A DNA stretch of 64,000 bases. Source: Epilithonimonas xixisoli (lineage in GTDB: Bacteria > Bacteroidota > Bacteroidia > Flavobacteriales > Weeksellaceae). A program made the translations under genes and the position numbers. Below are positions 2,022-56,610 of this stretch, piece after piece. The notes beneath the pieces were generated by a model that made no database searches, was not told the DNA's origin, and was given only the letters and a program-made list of their open reading frames with translations. The stretch's first letter is position 1. The number at the start of each line of letters is the position of its first letter. The stretch spans positions 372,001 to 436,000 of the forward strand of contig NZ_SOEO01000002.1 in assembly GCF_004365655.1 (NCBI RefSeq), given 5' to 3'.

Positions 2022-2125
2022 GGAGCTTAATCCCGCTATCCGCTGTATTTTTTTTGTTTACGACGATTATTCATCAGTAGAAATTAAGTAGAAAAACAAA
2101 AAAGGATGTCGCTTCTATCGGGGCT
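2022..2125 (-). repeat. Divergent copy of the dispersed hairpin element
   Basis: Read on the minus strand, this carries AGCCCCGATAGAAG and ATCCTTTTTTG in its left half and ACAGCGGATAGCGGG with AGCTCC in its right half. The order matches the clearer copies at 4000, 9674, 19231 and 56527: outer arm, CCCCGA box, ATCC plus T run, loop, A run, GCGGA box, outer arm. Outer pairing is AGC/GCT (2024-2026 with 2123-2125), and CCCG (2032-2035) pairs with CGGG (2119-2122). It lies between the GH3 gene and the MFS gene. Confidence 0.5.
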
Positions 2126-2231
2126 ATGGGTTCCTCATCCAAACAACAGTTTCTATCAAAATATCCACTTTAACTTTACTATCATTAGCTTTGTCAAAGT
2201 TCCAAATCTTTGACAAAGTTTTAAAATTCGA

Positions 2232-3999: not shown

Positions 4000-4085
4000 G
4001 CAGCCCGACTTGAGTGGAAATCCTTTTTTGTAGCAGGTAAAGCTTAGGCAAAAAGATTGGGAACGGAAGGCGGATAAAGCTGCCC
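4000..4085 (+). repeat. Dispersed hairpin element, copy A
   Basis: The outer arms GCAGC (4000-4004) and GCTGC (4079-4083) are complementary. Inside, CCGACTTGAGTGGAAATCC faces GATTGGGAACGGAAGGCGG, and TTTTTG pairs with CAAAAA around a loop of about 20 bases. It is nearly identical to copies at 19231 and 56527 and similar to a longer reversed copy at 9674. Arm differences between copies are compensatory (see findings). It lies just upstream of the rplU promoter. Confidence 0.8.
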
Positions 4086-4118
4086 AAATTATAATTATTA
4101 AAAAGTTTGTGATAAGTG

Positions 4119-4603: not shown

Positions 4604-4861
4604 ATGGCACATAAGAAAGGAGTTGGTAGTTCCAAGAACGGTAGAGAATCTCATTCTAAAAGATTGGGTGTGAAGATTTTCGGAGGACAGTCTGCAATTG
4701 CAGGGAACATCATCATCAGACAGAGAGGTACGCAACACCACCCAGGTGAAAACGTAGGAATGGGTAAAGATCACACTTTGCACGCTCTTGTTGACGGTAC
4801 TGTAGTTTTCAGAAAGAAAGCAAACAATAGATCTTTTGTATCTGTTGAGCCAAACGCATAA
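4604..4861 (+). CDS. rpmA: 50S ribosomal protein L27
   Basis: Encodes 85 residues, the normal length. The N-terminus [20 protein letters not shown] is the conserved L27 tail that reaches the peptidyl-transferase centre; there is no N-terminal leader of the kind cleaved in Firmicutes. The motif [17 protein letters not shown] follows. It is second in the operon with rplU and is followed by a strong terminator. Confidence 0.98.
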
Positions 4862-9673: not shown

Positions 9674-9802
9674 GGGCGCCTTTATCCGCCTGTAGTTTAT
9701 CCAGAGCTTGTCGAAGGGCTCCCAATCTTTTTTGCAGACGATTTCAATCTAAATAGGAACTTGAGTACAAGCAAAAAAGGATTTCCGCTCAAGTCGGGGC
9801 GC
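9674..9802 (-). repeat. Dispersed hairpin element, copy B (reversed, longer)
   Basis: Read on the minus strand it begins GCGCCCCGACTTGAGCGG, continues AAATCC and a T run, and ends GGCGGATAAAGGCGCCC. The outer arms GCGCC and GGCGC pair (9798-9802 with 9676-9680). It differs from the other copies by a longer loop and by a segment CCCTTCGACAAGCTC in its right half. It begins 11 bases past the ABC-F stop. Confidence 0.75.
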
Positions 9803-9854: not shown

Positions 9855-9890
9855 AACCCTTTCAGAGTTTTGAACTCTGAAAGGGTTTTT
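9855..9890. terminator. Perfect 15-bp hairpin, terminator-like
   Basis: AACCCTTTCAGAGTT (9855-9869) pairs perfectly with AACTCTGAAAGGGTT (9873-9887) around a TTG loop, followed by T bases on the plus strand. It lies about 190 bases past the ABC-F stop, so it may be a distal terminator or a mobile hairpin rather than the primary terminator. Confidence 0.55.
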
Positions 9891-18476: not shown

Positions 18477-18497
18477 TGTCAGTCTGAGGTTTTCGAA
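18477..18497 (+). repeat. Short interspersed repeat TGTCAGTCTGAGG
   Basis: The 21 bases here match 42705-42725 with one mismatch. Both copies sit a short distance upstream of a start codon (hemD at 18510; GNAT at 42781). Similar TGTCA...TCGAA strings are familiar as eroded intergenic repeats in Bacteroidota. Confidence 0.45.
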
Positions 18498-18509
18498 GAC
18501 TTTATAAAT

Positions 18510-19211
18510 ATGAAAATCCTTTTTACAAAATCATTGGACAAAAAAGAAGTTGCTGAGAAATTGGGAACGGAAATGTCGGTTGATTTTGTGGAGGTCATCA
18601 AAACGGAATTCATTAAAACGAAAACTTTCGGTTTGAAGAATTATTCCTTGATTTTCACGAGTGTGAATGGCGTGAAAGCGTTCTTCGAAAACGGTTTTGA
18701 TGCGAATGAGAATTTTGCTGAGAAGAATTACAATAAAATTTACGCCGTTGGTTCGCAGACGAAAAAGGAATTGAGGAAACAAAATTTTGGGACTTTTAAA
18801 CTTTGTAAGAATGCGAGCGAATTGTCTCAGTTTATCACGGAGAATTCTGTGAACGAGAAGTTTTTGCATTTTTGTGGCGATTTGGCGTTGGATGTTTTGG
18901 ATGAGAAATTGCCCTTGCAAAATATTTCTTATAAGAAAATCCCTGTTTACAGAACCGAATTGCTGTTTCCAAAAATCAATGAGAAATATCAGGCTGTGGT
19001 TTTCTTCAGTCCGAGTGGAGTTCGTAGTTTTGCGAAGTTCAACGGTTTGGAGGATTTGAAGATTTTTTCGATTGGAAAAACGACGACTGCGGAATTGAAG
19101 AAACTCACAGAAAATAAAATAATTACAAGTCATAAAAATACGTTAGCCGATTTGTTGAATTTGATTTCTAAGGAAAGTTCAACTTTTGGGAAAACTGATT
19201 TGGAAGACTAA
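18510..19211 (+). CDS. hemD: Uroporphyrinogen-III synthase
   Basis: Encodes 233 residues. HemD sequences are poorly conserved; the call rests on family-like segments (LIFTSVNGVKAFFE, KIYAVGSQTKKELR, VVFFSPSGVRSFAKF, IFSIGKTTTAELKK) and on the position between hemC and hemE. The enzyme closes hydroxymethylbilane with inversion of ring D. Unlike the tight hemA-hemC pair, it is set off by 209 bases of repeat DNA, so it may depend on read-through or its own weak promoter. A fully overlapping antisense frame of 200 codons is considered a shadow. Confidence 0.9.
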   Translation: MKILFTKSLDKKEVAEKLGTEMSVDFVEVIKTEFIKTKTFGLKNYSLIFTSVNGVKAFFENGFDANENFAEKNYNKIYAVGSQTKKELRKQNFGTFKLCKNASELSQFITENSVNEKFLHFCGDLALDVLDEKLPLQNISYKKIPVYRTELLFPKINEKYQAVVFFSPSGVRSFAKFNGLEDLKIFSIGKTTTAELKKLTENKIITSHKNTLADLLNLISKESSTFGKTDLED

Positions 19212-19230: not shown

Positions 19231-19316
19231 GCGCCCCGACTTGAGTGGAAATCCTTTTTTGTGGCTGGAAAAGCTGAGGCAAAAAGATTGGGAACGGAAG
19301 GCGGAAAAAGGCGCCC
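19231..19316 (+). repeat. Dispersed hairpin element, copy C
   Basis: The outer arms GCGCC (19231-19235) and GGCGC (19310-19314) pair. The interior is almost identical to copy A, with CCGACTTGAGTGG facing GGGAACGGAAGGCGG. It fills the hemD-hemE gap, starting 20 bases after the hemD stop and ending 16 bases before the hemE ATG, so if the operon is transcribed through, it is part of the hem message. Confidence 0.8.
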
Positions 19317-19332
19317 AAAATAATTTAAGAAA

Positions 19333-20358
19333 ATGATAAAAAACGACCTATACTTGAAGGCCTTGCGAGGCGAAACCGTGGACAGACCGCCTGTGTGGAT
19401 GATGAGACAAGCCGGAAGATACTTGCCGGAATTCATTGCGTTGCGCGACAAATACGACTTTTTCACCAGATGCCAGACGCCGGAATTGGCCTCGGAAATT
19501 ACGGTTCAGCCGATTAGAAGATTTCCTTTGGACGCGGCGATTTTGTTCTCGGATATTTTGGTGGTTCCGCAAGCGATGGGCATCGATTTCAAAATGAAAG
19601 AATCTGTTGGACCTTGGTTGGATGAACCTATCAGAACGGCTCAACAAGTTGATGATGTGATTGTTCCGGACGTAAACGACACGTTGGGCTACGTTTTCGA
19701 TGCGATAGAAATGACTTTGGAAAAGCTGGACAATGAGATTCCGTTGATTGGATTTGCGGGTTCGCCTTGGACGATTTTCTGTTATTGCATTGAGGGAAGA
19801 GGTTCTAAGGATTTCAATATTGCGAAGTCATTTTGCTTCTTACAAACGGAAGCGGCGCACAAATTATTACAAAAAATCACGGACACGACGATTGCTTATC
19901 TGAAACGAAAAGTGGAGAAAGGTGTTTCTGCTGTTCAGGTTTTCGATTCTTGGGGCGGAATGCTTTCGCCTGCCGATTATCAGGAGTTTTCTTGGCAATA
20001 CATCAATCAAATCGTGGAAGCTCTCGCACCATTAACGCACGTTGTGGTTTTTGGGAAAGGCTGTTGGTTTGCGTTGGAAGACATGACGAAATCTAAAGCT
20101 TCGGCTTTGGGCGTTGACTGGACGATTACGCCGGAATTGGCGAGACAATTCACGAATAATTCTGTGACGCTTCAGGGGAATTTTGACCCTTCGAGATTAC
20201 ACTCAACTCCGGCAACTATTAGAAAAATGGTTCACGAGATGATTGACCGTTTTGGAAAAGATAAATACATTGTGAATCTCGGACACGGGATTTTACCAAA
20301 TATTCCGGTTGAAAATGCGGAAGCTTTTATAAAGGCTGTTGTAGATTGGAAAGCATAA
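19333..20358 (+). CDS. hemE: Uroporphyrinogen decarboxylase
   Basis: Encodes 341 residues, the normal length. It removes four acetate carboxyls from uroporphyrinogen III to give coproporphyrinogen III. The signature [16 protein letters not shown] is near residue 18, followed by [26 protein letters not shown] and the C-terminal NLGHGILPN. It closes the heme cluster and is followed by a clear terminator. Later genes of the pathway (hemN/hemF, hemG, hemH) and hemB are not in the window. Confidence 0.97.
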
Positions 20359-44197: not shown

Positions 44198-44203
44198 AAT
44201 TTC

Positions 44204-44211
44204 TATTTTTG
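44204..44211 (+). promoter_or_regulatory. -7 box of nth
   Basis: TATTTTTG matches the consensus exactly and lies 21 bases before the ATG at 44233. This rules out the longer frame that begins with TTG at 44209. Confidence 0.6.
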
Positions 44212-44232
44212 TACGACAAAGTTACCATCAAA

Positions 44233-51910: not shown

Positions 51911-51985
51911 GGGCTCTTAGCTCAGTTGGTTCAGAGCATCTGGTTTACACCCAGAGGGTCGGGGGTTCGAATCCCTCAGGGCCCA
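51911..51985 (+). tRNA. tRNA-Val (anticodon UAC), copy 1
   Basis: A 75-base cloverleaf: acceptor GGGCTCT with AGGGCCC, D arm GCTC/GAGC, anticodon stem TCTGG/CCAGA with loop TTTACAC giving anticodon UAC (Val), and T loop TTCGAAT. The 3' CCA is not encoded. It reads GTN codons, chiefly GTA and GTG. It is followed by a second identical copy after 34 bases. Confidence 0.97.
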
Positions 51986-52019
51986 CAAAAAGGATACTGA
52001 AGCCTTTAAAAAAATTTCA

Positions 52020-52094
52020 GGGCTCTTAGCTCAGTTGGTTCAGAGCATCTGGTTTACACCCAGAGGGTCGGGGGTTCGAATCCCTCAGGGCCCA
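52020..52094 (+). tRNA. tRNA-Val (anticodon UAC), copy 2
   Basis: Identical to the copy at 51911-51985 over all 75 bases, transcribed from the same promoter and ended by the terminator at 52096-52127. Two copies in tandem raise the dose of this tRNA. The spacer between copies does not match the flanks, so the duplication is not a recent simple repeat of a larger block. Confidence 0.97.
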
Positions 52095-52095
52095 C

Positions 52096-56526: not shown

Positions 56527-56610
56527 GCAGCCCGACTTGAACGGAAATCCTTTTTTGTGGCTGGAAAAGCTAGGCAAAAAGATTGGGAGTGGAAGGCGGA
56601 AAAGCTGCCC
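56527..56610 (+). repeat. Dispersed hairpin element, copy D
   Basis: The outer arms GCAGC (56527-56531) and GCTGC (56604-56608) pair. The interior has CCGACTTGAACGGAAATCC facing GATTGGGAGTGGAAGGCGG: relative to copies A and C, the GT and AC of the two strands are exchanged, and the pairing is kept. It lies between the divergent pepT and HMG-CoA lyase genes, ending 24 bases before the latter's ATG. Confidence 0.8.

Follow-up and report, generated by a model that had tools for sequence, protein, structure and literature searches.

MITE-like elements such as Correia, NEMIS and RUP are short, non-coding, foldable sequences which lie close to genes. Flavo-1 (RF01705) carries the Rfam type label 'Gene; sRNA'. 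Weinberg et al. (PMC2864571) named it among candidate RNAs in 2010. A transcriptome of F. psychrophilum has Flavo-1 matches that coincide with several 5' transcribed regions; the matches occur in the sense or antisense orientation of transcribed regions alike, and many lie outside them (PMC9723704). No function is given to Flavo-1 in the available portions of PMC9723704 and PMC9029176; a further background source is PMC12306157. Among the papers listed, three name Flavo-1 and a few more give its accession; those listed for repeats of Flavobacteriia include nothing about the element.

The DNA analysed here, hereafter the window, is a stretch of 64 kb from a genome of 3.39 Mb (G000:C2:372001-436000). 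The HemE encoded in it shares 99% identity with the Epilithonimonas lactis protein, which places the source in Epilithonimonas or very near it. It contains five copies of a dispersed hairpin, four of which, judged by their sequences, form a subfamily, 'B', of Flavo-1. The features are as follows.

2025..2129, minus strand: Flavo-1 copy of the canonical A type, which precedes an MFS gene; 67.1 bits by cmscan, above the gathering score.
4000..4085, plus strand: subfamily-B copy between a divergent GH3 gene and rplU (ribosomal L21); outer arm GCAGC/GCTGC, dinucleotide GT/AC; 35.3 bits with RF01705, 92.8 bits with model R1.
9676..9802, minus strand: the 9674 copy, of subfamily B, with an ABC-ATPase gene and an FtsW/RodA-type gene converging on it; outer arm GCGCC/GGCGC, dinucleotide GC/GC, interrupted by a second repeat; 52.3 bits with R1.
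9691..9717, minus strand: 27-nt CTTCGACAAGCTCTGG-type insert within the 3' arm of the 9674 copy; present in G003 and G013, absent from G015 and G020.
19231..19316, plus strand: subfamily-B Flavo-1 hairpin between hemD (18510-19211) and hemE (19333-20358); outer arm GCGCC/GGCGC, dinucleotide GT/AC; 40.1 bits with RF01705, 91.9 bits with R1.
44198..44230, no strand assigned: site of a B copy in four of six compared genomes, with none in this genome or G013.
56527..56610, plus strand: subfamily-B copy, 23 nt upstream of the start of an HMGL-like gene; outer arm GCAGC/GCTGC, dinucleotide AC/GT; 32.4 bits with RF01705, 87.5 bits with R1.

The core CCCGACTTGANNGGAAATCC has four matches in the window, all exact although up to three mismatches were allowed, against 0.06 expected from 100 shuffles. 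The initial annotation had reported four clear copies of an intergenic hairpin with compensatory base changes. All four are found where it placed them, and the outer arms and dinucleotides it gave are correct as written. Its description of the copy at 9674-9802 holds for the position and not for a continuous 3' arm, since another short repeat interrupts that arm at 9691-9717; this copy scores 21.0 bits in the genome search with RF01705 and is absent from the cmscan list for the window at E 1. It had also overlooked the fifth, canonical copy on the minus strand at 2025-2129. ORFs of at least 120 aa overlap none of the five copies. The suggestion of a structured RNA family fits in so far as the element is Flavo-1, which Rfam already contains.

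Other repeats and genes accompany these features. A palindrome, AACCCTTTCAGAGTTCAAAACTCTGAAAGGGTT, at 9855-9887 on the minus strand adjoins the 9674 copy and is perhaps a RAYT-associated REP. It resembles the palindromes at 4071-4103 and 4714-4746 of another locus (L124), which flank a weak Y1_Tnp match. A layout like that of RAYT and REP is seen at L123:3608-4361, where GCACGAGC..GCGCCAGCG-type palindrome pairs stand on both sides of a Y1_Tnp-family gene (183 aa ORF). Two tandem tRNA-Val(tac) genes with equal scores occupy 51911-52095 of the window.

Flavo-1 and subfamily B are built on a common plan: CCG/CGG, an A.G mismatch, a short helix, a purine loop, the dinucleotide pair, a further purine loop, ATC/GAT and a T-run/A-run stem. 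The RF01705 alignments of the B copies at 19231, 4000 and 56527 are full-length (1-76), with mostly standard pairs. For the copies at 19231, 4000 and 56527 the scores listed above correspond to E 4e-5 to 6e-3, the gathering score of the family being 42; six other B copies in the genome exceed it (42.3-46.3 bits). The dinucleotide states GT/AC, AC/GT and GC/GC are found in B and also in the A and C subfamilies, and two of the three in D and E. Subfamily B differs from the family description in its 5-bp outer arm and 3' A-rich bulge, in having CTTGA in place of a TTGCA-type segment, in the extra G of its GGGA loop, in the A.G/G.A swap and in scores which mostly fall below the cut-off.

The element is present at high copy number. 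The pattern CGACTTGANNGGAAATCC, with up to two mismatches, has 56 matches in the genome against one for a reversed-pattern control, and RF01705 gives at least 114 matches at E <=1, 64 of them above the gathering score, among the best 150 of 968 candidates scored. One match (L119) and one pattern match (L121) which do not parse as the element were dropped and two interrupted copies missed by the model were added, leaving about 115 copies, which we sorted into 52 B, 31 A, 13 C, 9 D and 10 E (L102 was assigned to B and L117 to A by eye). Each of the 22 other genomes of the genus has at least 46-66 RF01705 matches among the best 66 candidates scored per genome, and at least 32-68 with the B model among the best 68. 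The genome-wide search which the initial annotation had proposed thus yields further copies at home and dozens in all 22 same-genus genomes. Outside the genus the B model finds 65, 21, 19 and 27 matches in four of 13 same-family genomes and 0-3 in the other nine; of 23 same-order genomes, two have 11 and 7 and the others none. Subfamily B is a lineage-specific expansion. RF01705 itself matches 38 of 59 genomes at E 0.001, this one included (37 above the cut-off), and none of 14 controls, consistent with the Bacteroidota range of the family; at E 1 five of the 14 controls match, none above the cut-off. Plasmids and phages searched with one B copy, and plasmids searched with one A copy, gave no match.

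The copies follow a fixed plan of short helices parted by nearly invariant purine-rich loops, and the helices vary in complementary pairs. An alignment of 55 B copies (A1; 49 from this genome and 6 from relatives) was collected by a regular expression which fixes some loop letters and permits only A or G at the mismatch; it took 49 of the 52 B copies of the genome, the other three being interrupted by inserts. Of 1201 cells, 99.1% are paired. Double changes occur in 8 of 22 pairs against 5.5 in shuffles (11 of 500 shuffles reach 8), and double-changed cells number 79 against 17.3 (sd 3.2) in shuffles and 0-3 when partners are slid by 1-3 columns; these shuffles ignore relatedness, and copies within one genome are related. 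A measure of further pair types does not exceed the shuffles, of which 172 in 500 reach the observed value. The dinucleotides in A1 are GC/GC 22, AC/GT 16, GT/AC 13, AT/AT 1, GC/GT 2 and GG/AC 1. C-type copies are looser, with a dinucleotide wobble in 7 of 13. RNAalifold recovers nearly the same fold as the proposed structure, and three single B copies fold as proposed, the A copy at 2025 less clearly so. The RNA folding energy of B copies in the sense orientation is not exceptional against shuffles (z -0.25 to -1.09).

The unpaired positions are held more tightly. Of 83 unique B rows, 68 have A.G and 15 have G.A at the 1x1 mismatch adjoining CCG/CGG, and none has any other combination; these rows are 93 less ten set aside beforehand (five A-type, five disrupted or deviant). 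All 62 copies of types A, C, D and E have A.G at this mismatch. The loops of the B rows read GA/GG in 83 of 83 and GGA/GGGA in 78 of 83, and at the equivalent loop 61 of the 62 A, C, D and E copies have GNA with GGA or GAA. The 28 rows found by the model alone agree, with the mismatch A.G in 28, GA/GG in 28 and GGA/GGGA in 26. That helix positions change in pairs while unpaired purines stay is a sign that something reads the fold.

Some observations bear on the strand which would be read. Three B copies fold more stably as the sense strand than as the complement; for the copy at 19231 the values are -25.3 versus -19.5 kcal/mol as RNA and -14.9 versus -9.5 kcal/mol as DNA. An excess of G.T over A.C would mark one functional strand. 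The raw counts in the B rows are 12 G.T and 23 A.C, of which 16 A.C come from one pair misaligned in AGCTC-core copies and four from A-type rows read by the B model; with that pair and the ten rows set aside they become 11 and 2. The 62 other copies give 11 G.T and no A.C, five of the eleven being one shared C-type state, as counted by a parser which accepts wobbles as pairs and A.C not. Because of the filtering in B and the parser favouring wobbles elsewhere, the strand test is suggestive only.

The compared places are mostly kept across species, and the inner layers are replaced. Twenty loci (L205-L224, this genome included) were examined for the hemD-hemE gap; three of the 23 genomes of the genus gave no locus. 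Fifteen (L205-L219) hold the element in nearly the same basal frame, and five (L220-L224) have no element there, nor any match to the B model. Across the fifteen the dinucleotides are GT/AC in five, AC/GT in six, GC/GC in three and the wobble GC/GT in one, complementary in 14 of 15. The inner part is an AATCC-type hairpin in five, an AGCTC-type hairpin in six, CTCTTCGAGARCCTCAGAGTG in two, TCCCGATATTAAATCGGGA in one and a CATTGCGAGG..CCTCGCAATG hairpin in one. Six sites were compared by synteny in this genome and G015, G021, G020, G003 and G013. The element is present in all six genomes at 2025 (in G021 seen by eye, where the end of the fetched stretch cuts it), at 4000 (disrupted in G013) and at 19231, in five of six at 9674, in all five genomes fetched at 56527, and in four of six at 44210 (disrupted in G020). 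The states vary among orthologs at 19231, 44210, 56527 and 2025; at 4000 there is a wobble, GT/GC, in G015 and a C.A mismatch in the disrupted copy of G013. Inner layers change wholesale between species, being T-run hairpins or other palindromes. Since sites are mostly retained and their states differ, the addresses in the window region are old and their contents young. No clean junction or target-site duplication was seen at 44210, the sole presence/absence site. The earlier inference of selection on a folded structure is supported by covariation above shuffles and slid partners, by the matched double changes at orthologous sites and by the exceptionless mismatch in the 83 B rows. That related species mostly keep a copy at the compared sites and swap its inner layers in matched pairs suggests that the folded shape is preserved.

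Within the genome the layers behave as a mosaic. The 49 intact B copies combine outer arm, mismatch, dinucleotide and apex length in 24 ways, and all six layer pairs pass the four-gamete test on the commonest states. Random conversion tracts would often be expected to leave unmatched arms, yet 3 of the 49 have imperfect dinucleotides; either selection purges mismatched copies or exchange respects the fold. A search of G013 for the donor of the replaced inner block in its hemE copy returned the block itself and one partial stretch of 79% identity, and because no close donor is present there, conversion from a sister copy is something we infer. CTTCGANNNNCTCAG, an apex module, is a dispersed repeat in its own right, with 51 exact matches in the genome against none for the control, and GTCATTGCGA has 15 matches against four.

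Further nesting of repeats is evident. CTTCGANNNNCTCAG occurs on the minus strand of the window at 18484-18498 and, with one mismatch, at 9702-9716, and is also nested in Flavo-1 hairpins. In two B copies (L027 and L120) nearly identical inserts, ACTTCRTCGAACCACTTCGTTAGGTT, interrupt the 3' arm at the same position. On the 3' side of C-type copies (L067, L072, L077, L083 and others) a second module follows, CCCGAGCGGTGG..GGCGAGGGAYACGC, which is like the E-type apex module; Flavo-1 may belong to a larger element of several hairpins.

On balance, we lean towards an old, non-autonomous dispersed hairpin element, a Flavo-1 subfamily, which is read through its purine loops and whose inner layers are exchanged. 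A single strand in the Rfam sense would fold, and a putative factor would read the basal stem through its purine loops, on single-stranded DNA or on RNA. The copies may have been dispersed over a long time scale through a REP/MITE-like, non-autonomous process, and most of them would now persist. The inner layers would be replaced through exchange among copies and through other palindromes inserting at the apex, the survivors being mostly those which keep both arms matched. No partner gene or transposase was found for the element, and no clean gain with a target duplication was found at 44210.

We somewhat favour this hairpin-element reading over that of a structured RNA acting in cis or in trans, in which copies transcribed in UTRs bind a protein or regulate the mRNA; the latter is possible, if rather unlikely. 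Rfam curates Flavo-1 as an RNA family, its compensatory changes with invariant loops resemble protein-binding RNA, G.T exceeds A.C in the Rfam sense (11:2 in the filtered B rows, 11:0 in the other copies), and several 5' transcribed regions of F. psychrophilum coincide with Flavo-1 matches (PMC9723704). Four of the five window copies end 16-94 nt upstream of a start codon in the same orientation, a sense-facing position which is atypical of the genome-wide set. By a crude ORF caller, 75 of the 115 copies lie in co-directional gaps (54 antisense, 21 sense), 21 in divergent and 18 in convergent gaps, with one unclassed; ORF calls of at least 60 aa overlap 32 of the copies, and in five cases the call is at least 100 aa long. 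A set of 146 gaps of at least 130 nt, taken from the window and related loci, predicts 63/13/37 where 75/18/21 are observed for co-directional, convergent and divergent gaps (p 0.004). Between co-directional genes the antisense bias is significant (54 of 75, p 0.0002). Most mRNAs would thus hold the complement, and in F. psychrophilum too Flavo-1 lies in either sense and often outside transcribed regions (PMC9723704). The mixed contexts and the antisense bias speak against the element being uniformly a leader, a terminator or an sRNA. In G022, 106 matches were compared with 20 sampled 12-kb windows for a replication-strand bias; the sampled GC skew flips sign several times, so no replichore effect is claimed.

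The hairpin-element reading can be taken further, into a form which we consider decidedly unlikely as a whole. The hairpins would be fixed genomic addresses at which a structure-guided process swaps concentric stem layers as matched pairs, a protein reading the purine loops of the folded single strand. In a single event, homologous or foreign hairpins would take the place of the inner part in both arms, giving each genome a shuffled deck of shape-equivalent hairpins.

It is very improbable that the element is a neutral repeat whose arms are held complementary by template-switch (quasi-palindrome) repair without selection. One such step would yield matched double changes, and the inner layers do turn over rapidly at hemD-hemE and the syntenic sites. 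Repair of this kind yields perfect palindromes, however, whereas the non-complementary loops are nearly invariant. The proposal is weakened already by the mismatch, where A.G is replaced by G.A alone: an exchange without exception in 83 B rows is something Watson–Crick repair cannot explain.

The initial annotation had raised the possibility of a REP moved by a resident RAYT or IS200-type Y1 transposase, a reading to which we leave only a slim chance. The element is short, foldable and intergenic, with about 115 copies, in a genome which has three Y1_Tnp genes above the cut-off and one weak match. Within 3-8 kb around these four genes there is no paired Flavo-1 core, only five single half-motifs with one mismatch; all four are flanked by other inverted repeats, palindromes of their own. 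In a search of this genome and 58 relatives for Y1_Tnp at E 0.001, G005, G017 and G035 have no match, yet contain at least 66, 66 and 4 RF01705 matches and at least 67, 68 and 27 B matches among the best 66-68 candidates scored. The flank consensus of 49 B copies, gAAtC / CCAAAT, has no GTAG or CGTC tag. With Y1 genes lacking a paired core and copies in Y1-less genomes, mobilisation by RAYT is not supported. A transcription terminator or boundary element is the least likely reading: co-directional gaps are in excess and divergent gaps depleted (p 0.004), but the consensus of 49 B copies has no T-run after the hairpin on either strand and 21 of the 115 copies lie between divergent genes.

The hairpin-element reading recasts Flavo-1 as a high-copy dispersed hairpin with sites mostly common to species and inner layers exchanged, and its non-canonical covariation, A.G to G.A, would mark bases required by a binding factor or by the fold. 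A number of parallels with known systems can be drawn. As a single sRNA gene Flavo-1 does not fit the copy number and syntenic stability seen here. REP/BIME sequences with RAYT are, like the element, dispersed short intergenic palindromes in many copies (PMC6006769, PMC3733652). The element differs from them in having no flanking RAYT in its own genome and no GTAG/CGTC tag in the B flanks, in its asymmetrical invariant purine loops and in its presence in genomes without Y1 matches. With the MITE-like elements, finally, Flavo-1 shares its short, non-coding, foldable nature and its closeness to genes; no terminal repeats of a known transposase were detected in it and no clean target-site duplication at the one polymorphic site, and in contrast to the MITE-like elements its compared sites are mostly common to several species.
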